Assembly (NCBI GenBank): GCA_030595715.1
Contig: JAUVCN010000004.1
Location: 1 to 49,647, forward strand
Direction of reading: 5' to 3'
Source of the DNA: Thermoplasmatales archaeon
Lineage (GTDB): Archaea > Thermoplasmatota > Penumbrarchaeia > Penumbrarchaeales > Penumbrarchaeaceae
DNA length: 49,647 bases
A program made the position numbers and the translations under genes. Shown here one piece after another: positions 7,801 through 19,559 of this stretch. The notes beneath the pieces were generated by a model. The model was given only the letters and a program-made list of their open reading frames with translations, did not search any database and was not told where the DNA came from. Each line of letters begins with the position of its first letter. Positions within the stretch are counted from its first letter, which is position 1.

Positions 7801-8408
7801 GCATCCTCGAACGTTCCATCACTTCCGGCATGGGCTCCAAATATCTGTTCATGACCTATCGAGAGCCTCGTATCCTCCCAGACGACCATGATCTTGCCGG
7901 TGGAGGAGACATCAAGATGAGGTAGTGTTTGACTTCCCATTAATTTGTATGATACCATGTAATTGCTGGAAAATGTCCCTCCACCATCTGTGGATCTGGA
8001 CATGTAGATCATGGGTCTTCCCTCTCTATCGTCGGACCAGACGATCCAGATCGTCCCATCCGGTCCAACCGATATCTCAGGATCGACCTGGTTTGAAACA
8101 TCATCGGTCAATGTCTCGGTGATGCTCGTGTCATCCACTCTCTTTTCGGGACCGAAGTTCAGACCGCCATCGTCCGAGGACCTGAAATAGAGATCCCAGT
8201 TACCGTTCCTTCTATCCTGCCAGACGATGTGGATATCATTTCCATCAGCGGCAATATCGGGTCTCCCCTGGTCAACATCCGCTGCATCATTATTGATCAA
8301 TATGTCATCTTCGAATGCCAGTGCTCCTTCTGTATGGGTGTTCACCATAAGTCCCATGAACGAAATGGAGATCATGAGGAATGCCAGTGCAAAGTAGTTG
8401 ATCCTCAT
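4845..8408 (-). CDS. secreted membrane-anchored surface protein, BNR/sialidase-like propeller plus Ig/Fn3-like domains, C-terminal TM and basic tail
   Basis: Signal-like N-terminus (MRINYFALAFLMISISFMGLMV); Asp-box motifs (SSDDGGLNFG, STDGGGTFSS, SEDGGDTFLP); TM LLLWLFFAVMLIVLFAMGYAYY then a basic tail. Start ATG at 8406-8408 overlaps the upstream stop (ATGA). Confidence 0.85.
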   Translation of the reverse strand: MRINYFALAFLMISISFMGLMVNTHTEGALAFEDDILINNDAADVDQGRPDIAADGNDIHIVWQDRRNGNWDLYFRSSDDGGLNFGPEKRVDDTSITETLTDDVSNQVDPEISVGPDGTIWIVWSDDREGRPMIYMSRSTDGGGTFSSNYMVSYKLMGSQTLPHLDVSSTGKIMVVWEDTRLSIGHEQIFGAHAGSDGTFEDAVRISDTSVDHNCYNPRVAFTDDDNIHVVWTEDRLIDMDILICSSEDGGDTFLPSYIINRDPSSSDQDMSDIDANETAVVVVWKDSRTSSADIYITISNDLARSFPLEEVAHPLSTSGHQYEPEVGIEGDGNISICWTSSPGFNDQRSDIQMTRMWGNGSFDAVKTVNDAGVGITQDTPSLAVSNGAAHLVWRDYRTNSQADIYYTRTVGSGEEGEGPVLSGGIVNPSLGGLNEKYTFRVTYTDFENDIPVPGNPKLELYYRSTGGLLFPYPGSPFNMTMRMGQGVNFDYRDGETFIMTVTPTRELELYHRFNATALSGNRTVVRTPLVRGPILDFEGPVITYLEPAVDEWKDSNIVDFTLEISDELSGVDPWSISYQRYNLATGAWESWQRKGTSEIIDNNTVKYTVNIVLFGGDENQVRFRAKDKIGNGEDENGYTVTDTFNVWVDPTGPFFRVNSPRSGQRSYDTEVAVDVTVWDLGSGLDLDSINVSYSLGGPDNYGEWMPISGFGANISEDPESEGGYNVKLNLSFAYGYNNFFRFSARDHLGHKSISNGVQVVIEKEEIIIEDRPPYAVSSIQPKVSGSVRPHITWAPTYDPDGDLVSYWMKITDVDTGEPILDWKFLGPGITYFDPDQETTFSPSKTYLIEIVPEANGLNGTAAESILLISNDANMPPSPVTGLEPKATSDPSPTLRWDESVDQENETVLYFIRIGTFYNGGDIQEWTTTYTDPKFVVDRILGAGMYHIQIICSDGRDFSPISHFTLSIGIYSPLVESERTSIVIYPPEDEIKGETDIKFERVELKIYNRGFTFDNIKIRLDGEATRRDDIDIYTENDLLEISPGSSMNATLMILVNENTEIGIYTLNVTVTSLDGVSSFTKALSVRIVDPADIGGIIGSGKVNEPDDTGLLLWLFFAVMLIVLFAMGYAYYRIDRRQREMDVDVIPSRKGTIRSFPSGKKDELKGNAGNKRLKGKGKEKIGLPPKQD

Positions 8409-11400
8409 TCTTCCACCTCCCATTCCTCATCGAGATCTTCCTCCTCGAGTTCAAGGTCCTCCAGATCGACCTCGATCTCTTCAACTTCTTCCAGATCATA
8501 TTCATCGATCCCTTCAACTTCTATCTCCTCTATCTCGATCTCTTCAGGAGAATCGGTGAAGAGATCCGATCCGATCTCGTCTTCATCCGGTATTTCCCAA
8601 TCCTCGATGAGAACCTCATCCGGTGGCTCAATATCCGGTGCGGCCTTCAAGGGTTCCTTTTTCCTTTTTTTCTTCTTCTTTCCCTTCAACATATTGTCCT
8701 TATCCTTTTCAGTGAATACAGAACCGCATTTTACACAGTACTCATCGGATATCTTTGCTTCTTCACTGCAATATGGGCAATAGGGCGTTACCTGTCCGGG
8801 ATCGTAAACTGCATTGATCATCATCGGATCGTCCATCGGTCTTTGATCGACCTCTCTTTGACCCCAGAACAGGTATGCGGCAAACAAGCCTGAGAGAGAT
8901 CCGAGGATCAATACCAGGATGAGGAGCCAAATAAGATCCTTGATCTTTGTACAAAGGCTATCCTGTTTCACTTCATCGTCATCGATCGCTTCCTTGATCT
9001 CGATGACCCGGATCCGGACCTTTTCCGAGGAAACGGTATGGGTGCCATCTGTTACTATCAACTGGATGTTATGGACGCCTATTGTGGTCAATGTCGCATT
9101 TGCTTCCATCCCGGTTGCTATCAGCCCGTCACCCGGATATCCTTCAAGGTCCGAATACCATTTGAATGTCAATTCCTCCCCTTCGGGATCGATGGAGGCA
9201 GAAGCGTTGAGGATAATGGATTCTCCTTCATAGATGAGATCCACAGCCGGCAGGATGCTGAAGAGTGCGGAGGGAGGGAGGTTCGTCTTCGAGAGAGCAA
9301 CCTCGATGGAGATGGGTGTGCTGATCACCCACCCATTACCTGCCTGATCCCTCGCCCTGAACCTGATGAGGTTGAAAGCCCCCTCATCCAGTGTTACGGT
9401 GGAAGTGGCCATGTAAGAACCACCTATGGTCTGGAGCTCATCCACCTGTGTCCAGGGAGAGTATCCACCAACTCCGTAGAGGATCCACGTGGATAATCTT
9501 GAAACTGAGAACTCCACATCACCCTTGACCATCCCGCTCGCTTCTTCGGAGATGAATGCGGACACATCCAGATCGACCTTTGATTGGACCAGTGAGGAGT
9601 TTGGAAGGAATCCGGTGAATTCCGGCATGGTCCTGTCCACCAGCACAGCCACCTGATCACCCTCTGCAAGGTTTCCGGCTCTATCCCATACACGCCACTG
9701 GGCATATCCATAACCCTGGAAATCCGGGTCCACTTCTATTGATGGTGACGCCGAAACCCTGGATCCTTCAAGTCCTATCTTGTACCAGTTCGAATCCTGG
9801 AAGGATGAATGGCTGTCGAACCTGAACTCCACAGTGGAAAGATCGAGCCACGAAAGTTGATCATACATGTAGCATTCGAACATGTATGTTCCCGGGCCGA
9901 TGGTGACACTGGTATCACCGGCATCTATGGATGGAGGTGTGAGGTCGATGCTGAAAGGGATAGGTTCGGATATGGCAGTGATGCCTGCCATATCTGCAAC
10001 GCTCCACTGGATGTAATGGTTGTAGGCTTCCATTGATGGAACCGGAGCTACCAGGCGTGTTCCGTTTTCTTCTTCCTGCCAACCGAGGACACCGGACCAT
10101 TCTGTCAGTATATCCGAATCTGCCCTGAATGTCCTGTATCTGGCAGTTGAAGGATCGATCCCCGATCCGCTATCGATCACGAGGATGGATAGCTCATCCA
10201 CTTCCCATGTCAGCCATGTGTCGCTTGGAGGCATGGATCTTGTGAATATTGGGGGTGTTGTATCTGTGAGTATGTTCCTTGTTACCCCTGGCCCCAGGTT
10301 CCCTGCTCTGTCTATGGCCCACAGGGTAAGTTCTATCTCGCCTTCATCGAGCATGAGAAGCGTGCCTCTTTCGGCAGGGTCATATATCTCTGGTTCCGCA
10401 TTGCCCCGGCTGATCTCCAGTATGAACCTGTCAATGCCCGATGGGCCGATATCGAATATATTTTCCCAGTATATCTCGACGAACCTGTCATTATCTATCT
10501 CATCTATTCCGGCTTCCTTGCCATCTGCAAATACCGCGAAGGAGCTGACCTCGGGAGGTGATCCTGTATCGACCTTCAGGGTGATGGTCTGATTATCCTT
10601 CCAGATGGACCCGACGGGAAGTGGTTCATCCATCAATGGAGCAAGTCTGAAATTAGCGGCTGAACTTGTTATTCCATCCCCAACGGGAGTTGCATTGATC
10701 ATCAGAGTTGACCCATTCACGATCCCCCTGCCGATCAGGATGCCGTCAGGTCTGTAGAGGCCGAGGTTCACACCGTTCAGGGCCATCCCTGTGATCTGTT
10801 CCCCGTTCATTGTGTGATGAAGGGTGATGTTCTCTACCATGATCTCGGTGTCATTCCTGGCCCAATCATCCAATGTCCTATCCTGGGTGTAGGAAGCAAT
10901 GAAACCTTCCGGGTCGATCGAGATGGTCCTGTCGACCCTGAACTCCTTGCTCAGGTAGTTGGTGTATGTTCCGAGTCCACCCTGTATCTCCGTCGTGATC
11001 ATGCTTGGGTCCGGCATATTCCAGCCTATGTAGAAGGCGATGTCGGCATACCATGTCTCCACATCATCATTGGATGCCGAACAGTTGGATATGTCGAGCC
11101 ATATCCTGTCCTGGAAGATACCTGTTGTTTCCAGGCTGAAGGTCCGGGTATCCGTATCGAAGTCCATCATCGCGTCCCCTGTCCCCATCAGCGTCTTCAT
11201 CTTGATCGAAAGCGAATCAATATCCTGATATCCACCAAGGGACCTGCCGGAGACCTTTATCGTGTAAGGCCCTGCCATGGGAGAGAGGTATTGGAGCTCT
11301 CCTCTTTCACCATCCGGATCCGGTACCAATGTATCGGAGATGATCCTCGCGGTGGAGATCTTGACATCTCGATAGAACAGGTCCTTTCCTTCCCAGAGGA

Positions 11401-14400
11401 ATGCCCCACCCGGCCTTCTACCGTCACCATACGGGTCATGGGCGGGGGACCCCATCAGAAGGTCCATTTTCTCATTTCCACTAAGGTTCCCTATGGAGAT
11501 AGATGATCCGGACAGGTCTCCATCTCCTTTTGAAGATAGTACCGGTAGGGATGAGGAATTCAGCATCGTCCCATCCTTGATCAGTTTTGAATAGAGGACA
11601 AGTGTCCCTCCGGTGGTGGCGCCTGATAACTGGTCCTTGAATCCCTTGGCTCCGATCCCGAGGTCTTTGGATCCGTCTCCGTCCAGGTCTCCGATCGCAA
11701 GAGATGATCCCAATCTCTCCAATCTCATTTCCCCGAAGATGGACAGGTTCCAATCGGTCCGGAGCGAGATGTCCCCACCATCAATGATGGATGCGAGATA
11801 CTCTCCAAAAAGGAGGTAAGCATTCCCTCCCTGGGGTGTAGTTCTCTGATATCCATCTCCACTGGGTGAACCGATGGCAAGCTCTGCCTTACCATCGTTA
11901 TCAAGGTCACCAATTGCCAATGATAGACCTATCTGATCGTACTGCCAGGGTCCGAATATCCTTACGGACCCATCACTCAGAAGATCGTATGATGCATTCC
12001 ATGTTGACCTTCCTTTCATGATGTATACAAGTCCCTGATCCGGTATGGAGCCGAGATCTGACCTCGGTGCTCCTATCACGAGGTCATCGATGCCATCCCC
12101 GTCCACATCTCCTGACACCAGGGTCTGCCCTATCATCTCGTTGGCGATGGATCCTGTTATCTTCACATCGGCCATTCCGATCCTTCCGGATGTGGAGGAG
12201 ATCGGACCGAGGAAGATGAATACGTTTCCTGCGTGATATCTGTTCAATGATTGTGAGGCCATGGTCCCAGGGGACGAAACTGCCAGGTCATCGATGCCAT
12301 TTCCGTCGAAGTCTCCCACGGTTACCGCATAACCGACCTTTTCAACAGAATAACCCAGTACCCTCTTGTAGTTCTCCTGTTCCATGTAGGATCGTGTGCC
12401 GCCCCAGAAGATCTGGAATGCACCGCCGTTGTTCATTCCGTCATACTGTTCGGGCGCCCCTATGACCAGATCGGGATAGCCATCATTGTTCAGATCGCCC
12501 GAGGCAAGAGAAGATCCGAAGTTCGTCTGGCTTGGATGCAAATCGGTCTCATAGACAATGTCCGCATCTTTTTCCGCATCATAGATGGGCTTCCAACCCG
12601 TCGCACTTCCGAAGAAGAGGTAAACCCCTCCCACATTGGTGGTATAGGCCAGGGGGTCACTGATCACCATGTCGTTGTATCCGTCGGAATTGAGATCCGC
12701 TATCAATGTGACCGCACCAAAAGTAGATGATACATCACTCCCGAACAATCTGGTCTCGAATTCCTGAACCTGCATGAACATTGAAACCATTCCAATGGTC
12801 GTGGTCCCATCCTCCCCCGTGAATCCAGGTGAAGCCGTCAGGAACTCGCTGTGATCATCGCTGTTCACATTCAGGGCAAGGATATGTGAAAATGCCATTT
12901 GTCCTTCCTTCATTCCCATATATCTGATATCAGCGTCCGTCACGTTCAATATCTCGGGGAAGGTCCCATCGATCTCGTACCTCAATCCTTCACCGCAGGA
13001 TGTGAACTGGTTCCTTGCCCCATCGGCTTTTGGAGCACCTATTAATATCTCGTCAATGGAGTCACCGTCGAGATCGGAGCATAACAATGTCGCTCCAAGA
13101 TGATCTGACGAGTCCTCGCCATAGATCGTCGTGTTGATCCTGTCAGAATAGATGATCTGTCCATCGGTATGGTCGAATCCTCTCAGTATCCATACCTGAC
13201 CTGCATCTGCCCTTGTTCCGGTGATGTCATATGTCGCTGGGGCGCCGATCACAAGGTCATGATACGGATCACCGTCGAGGTTTCCACCTTCAAGGATCGG
13301 GGATACCAGGACGGTATCGTTCAATTCTATAGTCATATTGGGGGCGTAAGAAGGAATGATGACATCGATGGTCGAGTTGAGTGGAACATGAGGGAAATCA
13401 GGCCCTCCGGTGATCACACTTATCTCCGAGGACATCGCAACATCGAGCTCCCATCGCGTGAATGAAAAGACAAGATCCCCGGTCCCGTCCCCATTGAAGT
13501 CCACGATATCCATCCCTTTTCCGATCTCCATGGCATGATTATCCGTCGTGACCGTGGCGGTCGAATTCCAGGATGAGAAATATCTGACCATCTTCGGGTC
13601 CAGGTCCAGGATAATATTGTTGATAGGGTCGGAGGATCCCTGGATCACCTCGATCTCCCAGGAGCCCAGAGCGCTGTTCTCATACCCATGTTCATATTCG
13701 GATGTACCACCGTATCCTCCGGCTCCATTGGTTCCCAGTGCCAGATCGTACAATCCGTCACCTGTGAGATCTCCAAGGACCATTCTCTGTCCGATCAGGT
13801 CCGCTGCATCCCTGCCGTATATGTGGCCGTAAAGACCTACATTTCCGATCCACATCCGTGAGGGATATTCTGATCGAAGCCTTCCCTGAAGAATGTAGAC
13901 CTCACCGGAGCTTCGTCTGCTCTCTCCCACCCCATCGGCCTCACTGGCCGAGATCAGGAGCTCATCCCTTCCGTCACCATCCATGTCCCCGGCAGCGATC
14001 GTCGTCCCGAAACGATCCCCGCTATCGACACCATAGATGATCAGGTCCGCATCGGATGTCCCCTGGAATGGAAAGAACTCATCAAGGTCCCTGGCGAAAT
14101 ACACGAGGACCGCACCAGCGCCATTTTGACCGGTGTATGTGGGGATCCCGACCATGATATCATCCCTTCCGTCACCATCAATGTCACCCGTTGCAATGGA
14201 ATTACCGAAACCCCATGCGGTTTCATCGCCTCGTATCTTGAGATATTCATCCCTGCCGACCAACATCCAGTCGTCGATCTCGGTGTAATCGGCCCCCTTT
14301 GCCGGAAGATGGTCGATCACAAGGACAAATGAAAAAAGCTGCAAAAAAAGCAGAGCGGTCAAGAATACTGTAATCTTTGATATTGTTCGGGACAATTCTC

Positions 14401-14425
14401 TACCTCCTCTGTAGATCCTCCACAA
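8405..14425 (-). CDS. giant FG-GAP/integrin-alpha-like surface protein with C-terminal TM, cytoplasmic zinc ribbon, lysine block and acidic tail
   Basis: About 14 repeats of the type GD(I/L/V)DGDGxDDLxIG; PKD/Ig-like C-terminal half; TM DLIWLLILVLILGSLSGLFAAYLFW; CPYCSEEAKISDEYCVKCG; KGKKKKKRKK; acidic tail. The true start may be TTG at 14395 (GGAGGT 7 nt upstream). Confidence 0.9.
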   Translation of the reverse strand: MWRIYRGGRELSRTISKITVFLTALLFLQLFSFVLVIDHLPAKGADYTEIDDWMLVGRDEYLKIRGDETAWGFGNSIATGDIDGDGRDDIMVGIPTYTGQNGAGAVLVYFARDLDEFFPFQGTSDADLIIYGVDSGDRFGTTIAAGDMDGDGRDELLISASEADGVGESRRSSGEVYILQGRLRSEYPSRMWIGNVGLYGHIYGRDAADLIGQRMVLGDLTGDGLYDLALGTNGAGGYGGTSEYEHGYENSALGSWEIEVIQGSSDPINNIILDLDPKMVRYFSSWNSTATVTTDNHAMEIGKGMDIVDFNGDGTGDLVFSFTRWELDVAMSSEISVITGGPDFPHVPLNSTIDVIIPSYAPNMTIELNDTVLVSPILEGGNLDGDPYHDLVIGAPATYDITGTRADAGQVWILRGFDHTDGQIIYSDRINTTIYGEDSSDHLGATLLCSDLDGDSIDEILIGAPKADGARNQFTSCGEGLRYEIDGTFPEILNVTDADIRYMGMKEGQMAFSHILALNVNSDDHSEFLTASPGFTGEDGTTTIGMVSMFMQVQEFETRLFGSDVSSTFGAVTLIADLNSDGYNDMVISDPLAYTTNVGGVYLFFGSATGWKPIYDAEKDADIVYETDLHPSQTNFGSSLASGDLNNDGYPDLVIGAPEQYDGMNNGGAFQIFWGGTRSYMEQENYKRVLGYSVEKVGYAVTVGDFDGNGIDDLAVSSPGTMASQSLNRYHAGNVFIFLGPISSTSGRIGMADVKITGSIANEMIGQTLVSGDVDGDGIDDLVIGAPRSDLGSIPDQGLVYIMKGRSTWNASYDLLSDGSVRIFGPWQYDQIGLSLAIGDLDNDGKAELAIGSPSGDGYQRTTPQGGNAYLLFGEYLASIIDGGDISLRTDWNLSIFGEMRLERLGSSLAIGDLDGDGSKDLGIGAKGFKDQLSGATTGGTLVLYSKLIKDGTMLNSSSLPVLSSKGDGDLSGSSISIGNLSGNEKMDLLMGSPAHDPYGDGRRPGGAFLWEGKDLFYRDVKISTARIISDTLVPDPDGERGELQYLSPMAGPYTIKVSGRSLGGYQDIDSLSIKMKTLMGTGDAMMDFDTDTRTFSLETTGIFQDRIWLDISNCSASNDDVETWYADIAFYIGWNMPDPSMITTEIQGGLGTYTNYLSKEFRVDRTISIDPEGFIASYTQDRTLDDWARNDTEIMVENITLHHTMNGEQITGMALNGVNLGLYRPDGILIGRGIVNGSTLMINATPVGDGITSSAANFRLAPLMDEPLPVGSIWKDNQTITLKVDTGSPPEVSSFAVFADGKEAGIDEIDNDRFVEIYWENIFDIGPSGIDRFILEISRGNAEPEIYDPAERGTLLMLDEGEIELTLWAIDRAGNLGPGVTRNILTDTTPPIFTRSMPPSDTWLTWEVDELSILVIDSGSGIDPSTARYRTFRADSDILTEWSGVLGWQEEENGTRLVAPVPSMEAYNHYIQWSVADMAGITAISEPIPFSIDLTPPSIDAGDTSVTIGPGTYMFECYMYDQLSWLDLSTVEFRFDSHSSFQDSNWYKIGLEGSRVSASPSIEVDPDFQGYGYAQWRVWDRAGNLAEGDQVAVLVDRTMPEFTGFLPNSSLVQSKVDLDVSAFISEEASGMVKGDVEFSVSRLSTWILYGVGGYSPWTQVDELQTIGGSYMATSTVTLDEGAFNLIRFRARDQAGNGWVISTPISIEVALSKTNLPPSALFSILPAVDLIYEGESIILNASASIDPEGEELTFKWYSDLEGYPGDGLIATGMEANATLTTIGVHNIQLIVTDGTHTVSSEKVRIRVIEIKEAIDDDEVKQDSLCTKIKDLIWLLILVLILGSLSGLFAAYLFWGQREVDQRPMDDPMMINAVYDPGQVTPYCPYCSEEAKISDEYCVKCGSVFTEKDKDNMLKGKKKKKRKKEPLKAAPDIEPPDEVLIEDWEIPDEDEIGSDLFTDSPEEIEIEEIEVEGIDEYDLEEVEEIEVDLEDLELEEEDLDEEWEVEE

Positions 14426-14578
14426 CTTCCAATATGGCCCAAAGGCCTAAGATCGGTACCTGGCCTGGAGTAACCAGCCATTTCATCCTTTATAAATTAT
14501 AAATATATTTTGGGGCAGAATAGAATTCAAGCCAGGGCATGTTTTATCAATGAGTCGATCGATCCGTGTTCCGTTCAA

Positions 14579-14998
14579 ATGAGAAGGAAAAAAATTGTGA
14601 AGAGATCGGAGATGACAAAAGCGGACATCGATCGTAAAATTATCGATGACAGGCACTATATTCTGAGGAGGACCTGCCATGGGGATCCCAAGAGGAGCTT
14701 TTGGATCAACGGCCATCCGTTTCCTCTCTGCGCCAGGTGTTCCATGTTCTATCTGTCGATCCCCCCGGGCATGATCCTTTGCATCCTGATAATTGGATAT
14801 CTCGATCCTTCTTCATTGATCCTGTTGGGACTGACAACACTGCTAATATTCCCTATGGTGATCGATGGCCTTACACAGTATTATGGGGCCAGATCATCGA
14901 ACAATATCTTAAGAGCTATCACCGGAGCTGCTGCCGGCATCGGTTCAGGGGTTGCCCTGGTGTATATGATCTACAGGATGTTCTTCCCTTTTCAATAG
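14579..14998 (+). CDS. DUF2085-like integral membrane protein
   Basis: RRTCHGDPKRSFWINGHPFPLCARCSMFYLS followed by three hydrophobic segments. Start uncertain (the ORF track gives 14510; GTG 14597 and ATG 14612 also possible). Confidence 0.7.
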   Translation: MRRKKIVKRSEMTKADIDRKIIDDRHYILRRTCHGDPKRSFWINGHPFPLCARCSMFYLSIPPGMILCILIIGYLDPSSLILLGLTTLLIFPMVIDGLTQYYGARSSNNILRAITGAAAGIGSGVALVYMIYRMFFPFQ

Positions 14999-15251
14999 AA
15001 GTTCTTGCATCTTGGGCAGTACCAGGAGCTGACCCTTTTTTTGTAGGTCATACCGGATCCGCAAACGGGGCAATTTTCACCCTTCTTGCCTTTATCATGC
15101 GTGACACTGAACATATCTGATGGGTCCTGGGACCCGGTAACACCCAGGTCCTCAGGTCTCTTGAAACTGAAATCGCTGCTTGAACCCTTCTTTTTTTTAT
15201 GTTTCTTCTTGGGGGGTTCGTATTCCTCATCGTCTTCATCGATGTCGCGAC
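14992..15251 (-). pseudogene. out-of-frame C-terminal continuation of the preceding CDS, encoding a terminal zinc ribbon
   Basis: Minus-strand frame -1 relative to 15252..16202: KVSRDIDEDDEEYEPPKKKHKKKKGSSSDFSFKRPEDLGVTGSQDPSDMFSVTHDKGKKGENCPVCGSGMTYKKRVSSWYCPRCKNFY*. Junction lies at the T10/A10 run 15260-15269. Confidence 0.75.
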
Positions 15252-16202
15252 TTACCTTCTTTTTTTTTTAGGTCTCTTCTTTCGGGGAGGTTCGTATTCC
15301 TCCTCGTCATCTTCTTCTACGGGGCGTCTCTTTTTCTTCTTGGGCTTCTCTTTCTTCTCTGGCCTCTTTTTCTTCTTATGTTTCTTCTTGGGAGGTTCGT
15401 ATTCCTCTTCTTCTTCTTCCTCCTCTTCTTCAGGAGGTTTGATTACGCCCTTTCTTCCACAATCATCACATTCGAATCTGAATGGAGGTTTCTTTGCTTT
15501 GACCTTGATGAGGTTGCCACACTTGCAACGGATCTTGATGATCTCTTCTTCATCCTCATCGTCTTCATCTTCTTCTTCATCGTCCTCTTCTTCATCTTCT
15601 TCTTCATCGTCCTCTTCTTCTTCATCATCTTCATATTCTTCTTCGTCTTCTTCTTCATCGTCCTCTTCTTCTTCATCATCTTCATCTTCGTCTTCTTCAT
15701 CTTCTTCTTCATCGTCCTCTTCTTCTTCTTCATCGTCTTCATATTCATCTTCGTCTTCTTCATCTTCTTCAGGCTCTGGTTCCACCTTTGGTTTAGATGT
15801 CTTTCCAATAACGAAGATCTCTTCCTCATCATCCTCGAGGCTGATAGGTCTGTAGGATGATTTCACCGCATGTTCATCCTCATCCAGGTCAAGGTCGAAC
15901 CCCTTCTTCTTCTTGGACTTCTTCTTTTTGGGTTTTTCCTCTTTGACCTCGACCTTGGCCTTCTTCTTCTTTGAAGATTTCTTCTTCTTCGGTTTCTCTT
16001 CTACTGTCTTCTTCTTTGATTTGGATTTCTTGGTGGAAGCTTTCTTCCCCTTTTTCTTGTCCAACCCTTCTTCCTTGGCATATTTCTTTGCAAAGGCCTT
16101 TGCCTTTTTAGCATAAACGCCAGTGGGTACCCAACCGCACTCCTGGCATTCCTCGAAAGGGTAGTCCATTTCAATTTTGCATTCCTTGCACTTGACCTTC
16201 AT
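15252..16202 (-). CDS. charge-segregated polyampholyte protein with zinc ribbons (reading frame continues to 14992 after an apparent frameshift)
   Basis: N-terminal ribbon MKVKCKECKIEMDYPFEECQECG, Lys-rich block, long Asp/Glu block, second ribbon IRCKCGNLIKVKAKKPPFRFECDDCGRKG, then repeats of (D/E)EEYEPPxKKxxKKK. SD GAGGTGGAGAG before ATG. Confidence 0.8.
   Translation of the reverse strand: MKVKCKECKIEMDYPFEECQECGWVPTGVYAKKAKAFAKKYAKEEGLDKKKGKKASTKKSKSKKKTVEEKPKKKKSSKKKKAKVEVKEEKPKKKKSKKKKGFDLDLDEDEHAVKSSYRPISLEDDEEEIFVIGKTSKPKVEPEPEEDEEDEDEYEDDEEEEEDDEEEDEEDEDEDDEEEEDDEEEDEEEYEDDEEEEDDEEEDEEEDDEEEDEDDEDEEEIIKIRCKCGNLIKVKAKKPPFRFECDDCGRKGVIKPPEEEEEEEEEEYEPPKKKHKKKKRPEKKEKPKKKKRRPVEEDDEEEYEPPRKKRPKKKRR
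15540..15775. repeat. low-complexity tct/tca/tcg-rich tract encoding the acidic block
   Basis: Recurring ttcttcttcatcgtcctcttcttc units; long open frames on both strands here (poly-Asp/Glu on minus, poly-Ser and Phe-rich on plus). Confidence 0.85.
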
Positions 16203-16349: not shown

Positions 16350-19300
16350 TCACAATGATGGTGGTTCGTTCATTTCTATCCCTTCATCAGCTTCAGGTGG
16401 ATATGAGAGATCGTCATCGACCTCCTCGGGGCCGGGAATGTCTGTATGTTCTATCTGCCCTTCCACGACCTCGGATCCTTCATCCATCACATCATCTTCC
16501 TGAATATCCAGGCTTCCCGAATCCAACCCATCCTCAAGAGGGATGTTGGCTCCGCATTCCGGACAGTAATCCAAACCATCTTCAAGTGTAGCACCGCAGG
16601 AGGGGCATTCTCCCTTGTTTGCCTCTTCCTGCTCACTCCAGGTGGTCTCAGTGGTTTCTTGAGCTTCCTCAATGACATCCTGCTCTTTTTCTTCCTGGGA
16701 CCTTTTCTTCAATATGATGAGGGTCACTGCAATGATGACTATCAAGACGATGACAGCGGCCACGATCAGGAGGATCATCGTTGGATCACCGCCGCCGTCA
16801 GCTGGTGTGGGCTTATCTTTGGCATCCAGAGGGTCCGTATTCGCTCTGAACTCTTCCAGGTTCGTATATCCATCTCCATCCGGATCCTGGAGAGCATCAC
16901 TTCGGTCCAGTGGATGGAATCCGTTGTCGACCTCCCATCCATCGGTCATCTCATCTCCATCGGAATCCTTCAACTCGGGATCGCTTCCTGTGTTGTACTC
17001 TTCCACATTTGTCAGTCCGTCGCCATCTTCATCCTCGGATGCATCCGTTGGATCGGAGGGACTGAGGAATGTCTTTTGCACCTCATACACATCCGGGATA
17101 CCATCGGAGTCGGAATCGACCCTGTCATCATCGATCGTTCTGAAGCTGAATCCAAGGGTCGGTCCCAGGTTCCCCCTGAGGTCCTCGATATAATTGATGG
17201 TAAAAGTGTAGTTCTTACCTCCTGACAATGCCTTTGTGAGAAGATATTCAACGGTCCTGTTCTCCTCATCGATCGTCGCGATGAGATCTATCGTGCCATC
17301 AGAGAACGGATCATCGACCACTGAAGCTTCCAATTGGCTCCAGATCACGAGTTCGCTGAACTGGATAATGAATACAGGTGCATGATCAAGGTCAATGTAG
17401 GTGGTCGGCTGTAAAACGGTCGCAACAGGGACAGTGTCATCTGGCACACGGGATCTGATCTTGAACAAAACGCTATCATGATTTCCCGAAAGATCATAGA
17501 CGGTCAATAGCACGGTGTAATTGCCCTCATCGAACATATGCTCCAGGGTATCGCCCGTTATCTCTTCTGTTCCATCCGGGCCTGTTATTGTCCAGACGGC
17601 TGAATGAACCCCTACATCGTCTGACGCGTTCGCCGGCAGGATCATGATCCAATCATTGTCCGTCTCTATCATTTTATCTTCAGGTAGTTCGAGCCCTATC
17701 GTTGGTTCGCTCAGATCTATCTGGATGGATTCTACATCGGAAAAGGCTCCCTCATTGTTTCCGGGATCCACCGATCTTACCTTGATATCATGGACCCCCT
17801 GGCCCAATTCCATGAAGAAGAAGAAGTGTCCTTCGAACGTCGCGGGCCTGGGAAGGTCAGGGTTCGGGTTCACATAGAGTTCATCATCCACGAATACATC
17901 GATGAAGCTCCTGTTCTCCCCTTCCACATTTCCTCTAAGAGCGATCTGGGTCCCATTATAATATCCGGACCCTTCAACGAACTGTGACGGGTCGTCAAAT
18001 ACGATCTCAAGTGTTGGAGCTACAGGAGGTGTGATGTCCAGGGTTCCAAAGATCAATTCATCTGTAAGATTGGAATAGTTCGGGATCTCACTATCGTCCA
18101 CACTTCTCATTACGAGTCTATATGCCGTTTCATTGGTAAGGCCCGTCAAATTGTAGGTCTGTGTTTTTTCACCGACACCCAGGGTCGAATTGACAAATGA
18201 ATGGAATACACTGGGTCCCATTTCATTTCTCAGGAAGAACTCGTAGCCAATGACATCAGCGGATGATGATCTGTTCCATTGTACCTCAGCCCAATCCCCT
18301 CCTCTTCCTTCGATCGAAATATCAACAGGTACCTCGGGAGATGTCTGATCAAGGGTTTTTACCCTGATCGGTCCGACGACATCGGATGGGTTATTGCTGC
18401 CATCTATACAGGATAATTTGATGTCATATTCCAATTCCTCAAGTAGTCCTTCAACCGCATTGGCCGGGATCTCGCTTGATATGTTCCAGTCCCTGGAACT
18501 GGGTCCTGGTTCCTCCGTATCCCATTCGGATTCCGATTCCCACCATTTCTTGTAATTGATGATGAAGAACTTCACCTCTGATGCGTTACCATTGAACTCC
18601 CATTTGATATTGATATGATGAGCCCCCTTTCCGGTAACCGTCAGATTGACCGGTGTTTCCGGAGGTGTGAAATCCATTTCCCATAGGAGATCGATATCGG
18701 CTCCCATATGCAGGGGCGGATCGTTTATTGCTTCACTCCACCTGTTGTTCTCAGCGGTCATTTTCAATGTGAAATTGACCCTGGCATTGGACCTGGATCC
18801 CGAATGGAGATATTCTTCAACTGCAATGGGCGGTAATCTTCCATCAACACCAGTTGTGGGGTCACCCGCCTTGGAATCATATACGTCCCAGTCACTGGTC
18901 CCTGGCTTCGTGGCAGATATCTTCAGTTCGGCTCCCATATAAGGTGTTCCGTCGATATCCCTTACCGCTTTGAAATTGAACCAATTTCCCTCGTGGAGTG
19001 TGCCTCCGGACACATCGACATTGTACTGTGCGGACAATGAGCAGTTGATCGCCCATACCTCTGAACCGGAATATGCGAAAACACCGGTGGAGGAGACAAC
19101 CGTGGAATTGTACAACCTGAGGGTTGACCCGGAACCTATTGCACCAACACCTTCGTTCGCGGTTATGGTACAATGGTCAAGAATCCCTATACCTCCAGCG
19201 GTGATATTGATCCGATCGAAACCATTCGATCCGGACCCCGTGAATTGGACAGGTGAGGGCCCGGTCCCTATCGCAGTTAGATTTCCCTTCACTTCCATCC

Positions 19301-19559
19301 ATATGTCATCTGCCAGATTAACGATGACCCCGGGAGATATTGTCAGTGTGGACCCTTCGGTGATCGTTAGATTTCCCTCAATGATCACCGGTGAATCAGA
19401 GGTGGACCACGTGACATCACCATTGATCTCCCCTTCTGACAAGGTAATTGCTTCTACCCTCTCACTTGAACCAATAAGGACCAAGGCTGACATCAAGAAC
19501 ATTAACAATACTGACAAAGGAGCCAGTCTTCTGGCTCCCGAAAGATACGATCCACTCAT
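16350..19559 (-). CDS. surface protein: beta-helix, Fn3-like and SbsA-Ig-like domains, TSP3/DxDxDG repeats, TM, cytoplasmic zinc ribbon and acidic tail
   Basis: EGNLTITEGSTLTISPGVIV...; Fn3-like domains; DSDSDGIPDVYEV, DEDGDGLTNVEEYNTGSDP, DPDGDGYTNLEEFRANTDP; TM ILLIVAAVIVLIVIIAVTLIIL; CPSCGATLEDGLDYCPECG. Confidence 0.88.
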   Translation of the reverse strand: MSGSYLSGARRLAPLSVLLMFLMSALVLIGSSERVEAITLSEGEINGDVTWSTSDSPVIIEGNLTITEGSTLTISPGVIVNLADDIWMEVKGNLTAIGTGPSPVQFTGSGSNGFDRINITAGGIGILDHCTITANEGVGAIGSGSTLRLYNSTVVSSTGVFAYSGSEVWAINCSLSAQYNVDVSGGTLHEGNWFNFKAVRDIDGTPYMGAELKISATKPGTSDWDVYDSKAGDPTTGVDGRLPPIAVEEYLHSGSRSNARVNFTLKMTAENNRWSEAINDPPLHMGADIDLLWEMDFTPPETPVNLTVTGKGAHHINIKWEFNGNASEVKFFIINYKKWWESESEWDTEEPGPSSRDWNISSEIPANAVEGLLEELEYDIKLSCIDGSNNPSDVVGPIRVKTLDQTSPEVPVDISIEGRGGDWAEVQWNRSSSADVIGYEFFLRNEMGPSVFHSFVNSTLGVGEKTQTYNLTGLTNETAYRLVMRSVDDSEIPNYSNLTDELIFGTLDITPPVAPTLEIVFDDPSQFVEGSGYYNGTQIALRGNVEGENRSFIDVFVDDELYVNPNPDLPRPATFEGHFFFFMELGQGVHDIKVRSVDPGNNEGAFSDVESIQIDLSEPTIGLELPEDKMIETDNDWIMILPANASDDVGVHSAVWTITGPDGTEEITGDTLEHMFDEGNYTVLLTVYDLSGNHDSVLFKIRSRVPDDTVPVATVLQPTTYIDLDHAPVFIIQFSELVIWSQLEASVVDDPFSDGTIDLIATIDEENRTVEYLLTKALSGGKNYTFTINYIEDLRGNLGPTLGFSFRTIDDDRVDSDSDGIPDVYEVQKTFLSPSDPTDASEDEDGDGLTNVEEYNTGSDPELKDSDGDEMTDGWEVDNGFHPLDRSDALQDPDGDGYTNLEEFRANTDPLDAKDKPTPADGGGDPTMILLIVAAVIVLIVIIAVTLIILKKRSQEEKEQDVIEEAQETTETTWSEQEEANKGECPSCGATLEDGLDYCPECGANIPLEDGLDSGSLDIQEDDVMDEGSEVVEGQIEHTDIPGPEEVDDDLSYPPEADEGIEMNEPPSL

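Follow-up and report, generated by a model that had tools for sequence, protein, structure and literature searches.

Gene and reading frames at the locus

The window (the whole 49,647-nt stretch of contig JAUVCN010000004.1 that was analysed, from the Thermoplasmatales archaeon genome G000) carries on its minus strand a gene that is split between two overlapping reading frames. The upstream frame, ORF1 (15252..16202, minus strand; frame 0), specifies 316 amino acids and is composed, from its N-terminal side, of a zinc ribbon (CKECKIEMDYPFEECQECGW), a Lys-rich stretch and a long Glu/Asp tract, followed toward the C-terminus by a middle ribbon (IRCKCGNLIKV...FECDDCGRKG), two copies of an acidic-EPP-basic repeat and a KKKRR end located right after a run of A's. 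(A tract of ~80 residues that are almost only Glu and Asp is found at 15540-15790 of the window.) The run, at 15269-15260 on the minus strand, consists of exactly ten A's, as counted in the sequence, and is read in frame 0 as CCT AAA AAA AAA AGA. The minus strand at the junction is AGA CCT AAA AAA AAA AGA AGG TAA, so that the frame-0 stop, TAA (15252..15254), lies two codons past the last of the run's three AAA codons.

The first-pass annotation had noted that the A10 run interrupts a reading frame that continues in the -1 frame, and had assigned to the continuation both a terminal zinc ribbon and a third copy of the (D/E)EEYEPPxKK repeat; the sequence and the list of open reading frames bear out the interruption, and translation the added copy and ribbon. 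The -1 frame tail (14992..15261, minus strand) specifies 89 amino acids and a stop codon, reads KKVSRDIDEDDEEYEPPKKKHKKKKGSSS...CPVCGSGM...WYCPRCKNFY, encodes the peptide PEDLGVTGSQDPSDMFSVTHDK and has at its end a four-cysteine CxxC...CxxC zinc ribbon, CPVCGSGMTYKKRVSSWYCPRCKNFY. Its stop codon, at 14994-14992, is placed 7 nt inside a convergent ORF on the plus strand (14510..14998; DUF2085-like according to the first-pass annotation), just as had been described. ORF1 up to the run together with the -1 tail would constitute a 403-residue trans-frame protein. In G000 the -1 frame opens only within the run (the final T of CCT makes a TAA with the two leading A's), and a shift of frame must therefore fall between the interior of the run and the frame-0 stop.

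Homopolymers of at least eight nucleotides are rare in the window: there are three, and two of these are in the split gene. The one in the tail is an A8 run (15191..15198, minus strand) that is in frame; the tail of one relative (G001, locus L003) likewise has an A8 run, and a run of this length is long enough for an occasional slip. Giant exported proteins flank the gene on both sides (8405-14425 and 16350-19559 of the window), and have one transmembrane segment together with either a zinc ribbon or an acidic tail. Giant exported proteins also flank the gene in relatives, a 1060-residue protein upstream in G001 and a 1044-residue protein upstream in G007.

Domains of the encoded protein

Comparison of ORF1 with Pfam yields no family match. 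The tails and the fused ortholog described below give only sub-threshold zinc-ribbon matches. For the C-terminal ribbon there are weak profile matches to Fpg and to eS27/eS31-type ribbons. The last 30 residues of the tail are modelled as a zinc ribbon with pLDDT of about 90, and a fold search with the tail returns only short zinc-ribbon matches, including ribbons of RPA, NudC, TFIIB and RNA polymerase subunits, none of them at E < 0.001. In G001 and G007 the tail has one more CxxC...CxxC ribbon. As a working guess drawn only from domain type, the product may be a nucleic acid- or protein-binding zinc-ribbon factor, with slipping deciding whether the last ribbon or ribbons are attached. Paralogues in which the N-terminal ribbon domain is present twice occur on contig 46 of G000 (L019, L021) and on contig 106 of G003 (L018, L020); they adjoin a membrane protein that has a zinc ribbon of its own.

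Conservation of the frame break

Orthologs were located by alignment with the tail in a search of the family (a scan of contigs with the whole of ORF1, most of whose patterns lie in low-complexity stretches, gave no match). Four relatives, G001, G007, G004 and G006, are readable at the site; a match in G003 (L007) is an unrelated ORF that contains stops, and was excluded. The downstream frame, whose absence from all orthologs the first-pass annotation had named as evidence against its reading, is present in all four. So is the A-run, which at the matching place is A10 in G001 and G007, as it is in G000, and A9 in G004 and G006, with the frame broken in the -1 direction in every case. The respective junctions are AGG AAA AAA AAA AGA AGG TAG (G001), AGG AAA AAA AAA AGG TAC TAG (G007), AAG AAA AAA AAA CGA TAG (G004) and ATG AAA AAA AAA CAC TAG (G006). 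All five readable species have in common a slip-prone A9 or A10 run and the direction of the break, and in all five the frame-0 stop follows one or two codons past the last AAA. The five species (G000 and four others from three other genera of the family) represent four genera; two of them belong to one genus, and five orthologs with an A-run are therefore not five independent events. The MAG records of the four relatives come from separate projects and their contig names are variously of MEGAHIT and SPAdes style.

The N-terminal domain is conserved in G001, G003, G004, G007 and G009, and a convergent neighbor similar to that of G000 is also present in G001, G004, G006 and G007. (In G003, G004 and G006 the corresponding gene ends at contig ends, possibly on account of its low-complexity repeats.) Homolog searches find the domain architecture only in the order to which the study archaeon belongs, and extending the search for the N-terminal domain to the whole phylum turned up no further groups. 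The ortholog of a sister family, G009, is a single open frame of 282 codons (272 amino acids from its ATG) without an A-run, and has the same order of domains, an N-terminal ribbon being followed by basic and acidic stretches and then by the middle and C-terminal ribbons. This outgroup is a single species, and the older state of the gene may have been either split or fused.

The tail as coding sequence

In the closest pair of orthologs, G004 and G006, the tails differ with dN of 0.116 and dS of 0.69 (dN/dS ~0.17), the differences being distributed as 10/6/21 over codon positions 1/2/3 (binomial p = 0.003). The four cysteines and their flanking residues are invariant across genera. The tail is, by these measures of substitution, under purifying selection. 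Near the run, the -1 frame offers no start codon that could serve for the whole tail; the first one lies 44-296 nt downstream in the five orthologs. Re-initiation as the source of the tail was rejected for want of suitably placed start codons. Since the tail is selected, has no start of its own and is fused to the rest of the protein in G009, it belongs to the same protein, and in this family it would be reached by a frame transition. The comparison of orthologs shows this apparent frame transition to be conserved and under selection.

A-runs and chance

How readily a run of this kind might arise from lysine-rich coding sequence was gauged by shuffling synonymous codons. Runs of nine or more A's appear at the site in 10.5% of trials for G000, 7.3% for G001, 1.4% for G007 and 0.6% for G004; these genomes share ancestry, and the percentages are not to be simply multiplied across them. 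All five readable orthologs nevertheless have such a run, each time together with the identical frame break, and its presence is judged to be above chance. Lysine codons in the split gene and its orthologs are mostly AAG. Use of AAA is lowest in G007 and G004, which retain the run against their own codon habits. On the other side, an A9 anywhere in the gene is no rare outcome of shuffling in G000 (62%) and G001 (40%), both of them rich in Lys codons. Elsewhere in the G000 genome long A-runs are uncommon: it contains ~35 distinct runs of nine or more A's, nearly all outside long ORFs (based on a pattern search and retrieved stretches), and clear cases inside long ORFs (L063 and L086, for example) are read through in frame. 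The A9 of L086, one of few long A-runs within a long gene of this genome, lies in an ORF of at least 430 amino acids that resembles, by eye only, pyruvate phosphate dikinase. A possible second split at an A9 run has been noticed in G006 (L043, contig 29, about position 1150): a 125-residue ORF ends ~29 nt past the run and is overlapped by a 114-residue ORF in another frame.

Alternatives to a programmed frame transition

The broken frame could be an artifact of sequencing or assembly, in which event the true run would be in frame and the gene a single ordinary ORF. A run of ten A's is a classic error site, and all the genomes are MAGs, but five species whose genomes stem from separate projects would all have to share an identical undercall, two of them at A9 and three at A10; the other long A-runs within long ORFs of G000 are in frame and the position of the frame-0 stop is conserved along with the run. 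The first-pass annotation had offered recoding (by ribosome or polymerase) and assembly error as its options. That all four orthologs are broken alike removes the latter almost entirely, as the least probable of the explanations considered here, and leaves the two forms of recoding. A different proposition is that the length of the run varies in the DNA from cell to cell, switching the long form on and off. A10 runs are mutable by replication slippage, but the run is in the same phase in all five genomes, which at random would be found about once in 243 times if the genomes were independent (they are only partly so), and that phase is kept whether the run has nine A's or ten. The shared phase makes phase variation less likely, and we regard it as improbable.

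It is also conceivable that the truncated protein is the sole product, with the tail either decaying as a remnant or translated as a small protein from a start of its own. The short ORF is indeed complete, with its own stop, but a tail that is conserved between genera and constrained in its closest pair does not resemble a remnant, and a conserved start codon in a position suited to making a separate protein is lacking; this explanation is held to be about as improbable as phase variation. An intact gene that is expressed through a programmed move into the -1 frame at its stretch of nine or ten A's, whichever machine executes it, is very probably the correct reading of these sequences.

Polymerase or ribosome

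In such a programmed transition, most decoding would continue in frame 0 to the stop codon just past the run, generating the 316-residue protein with its basic tail, and a fraction would enter the -1 frame to generate the 403-residue protein with the extra acidic-basic repeat and C-terminal zinc ribbon. The likeliest step would be a slip of RNA polymerase on the A-run, adding one A (or omitting two) and placing a share of the mRNAs in the long frame. A close second would be a slip of the ribosome by -1 on A AAA AAA, perhaps aided by the freshly made polylysine. That both products are made, in what ratio, and by which slipping machine is what we infer from the genomic data.

The ribosomal mechanism might act through tRNA-Lys slipping in tandem on A AAA AAA, or through sliding on poly(A) that is slowed by polylysine. 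It has in its favor an in-phase heptamer, A_AAA_AAA (of the X XXY YYZ form), in all five orthologs, and the demonstration of -1 programmed frameshifting in an archaeon for Sulfolobus fucA1 (PMC8211752). The constant -1 direction of the break in the five species also leans toward the ribosome, because a single conserved frame direction is read as indicating slippage by the ribosome and not by the polymerase (PMC3711429). Against it, the runs are nine or ten A's long where seven would suffice, and the search brought out neither conserved downstream structure (RNA folded after the run in the orthologs does not stand out, with z from -1.5 to +1.0) nor, on inspection by eye alone, a conserved Shine-Dalgarno-like element just upstream. 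Slippage at poly-A sites can, however, dispense with stimulators. A run of at least 8-9 A or T is a mark of slippage of the Thermus dnaX type, and all five species have nine or ten, matching the transcriptional-slippage length (nine or more) discussed in PMC1088944. An excess of early stops in the +1 frame would favor the polymerase; no such excess over chance is seen (P about 0.3-0.7).

It is the length of the runs and the failure to find a conserved RNA stimulator that slightly favor transcriptional slippage as the form that a programmed transition would take. Taken as a proposal in its own right, ribosomal slipping is a serious contender that falls somewhat short of an even chance. The fuller proposal, that slippage of the archaeal RNA polymerase sets the isoform ratio of a cellular zinc-ribbon protein, and that this was fixed in the family before its genera split, is put forward tentatively, at a little below even chance. 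The literature searched yielded no description of programmed transcriptional slippage in archaea, and no experimental study of archaeal RNA polymerase slippage on A-runs.

Relation to known systems

Transcriptional slippage at A9-A10 is known for dnaX of Thermus thermophilus and for the two-ORF dnaX genes of other bacteria (PMC1088944, PMC5009743, PMC3711429). The split gene is comparable in having an A9-A10 run late in its coding sequence, nearby stops in the frame that does not yield the product, and two isoforms (here predicted) that differ at the C-terminus, but its protein is unrelated and its host is an archaeon. In Thermus dnaX, moreover, the long form is encoded in genomic frame 0 and slippage generates the short one; the split gene is arranged in reverse, as is two-ORF dnaX.

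Among archaea, -1 frameshifting has been demonstrated experimentally for fucA1 of Saccharolobus (Sulfolobus) solfataricus, which like the split gene is a cellular gene divided at an A-rich slippery site that needs a -1 shift and has full-length relatives (PMC8211752). The interruption of fucA1 is confined to a few strains, whereas that of the split gene is kept across four genera. The chlD-type magnesium/cobalt chelatase genes of Methanocaldococcus and Methanococcus pass into the -1 frame at stretches of 7-11 A's and make two products (PMC3711429). The likeness to the split gene extends to the -1 transition at poly-A, to the two products (which for the split gene are surmised) and to conservation across genera; the proteins are different, and the case for an archaeal role of the chlD site itself draws on inference and on cassettes that others have tested. 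With regard to the protein, the C-terminal 30 residues resemble small zinc-ribbon domains of the archaeal RPA, NudC, TFIIB and Fpg types, while ORF1 is without a significant family match.

Annotation pipelines will label genes of this kind as truncated and overlook their last zinc ribbon. Very few cases of programmed frameshifting in archaeal cellular genes have been described (fucA1 and the chelatase genes), and the split gene would add to them one that extends across at least four genera.
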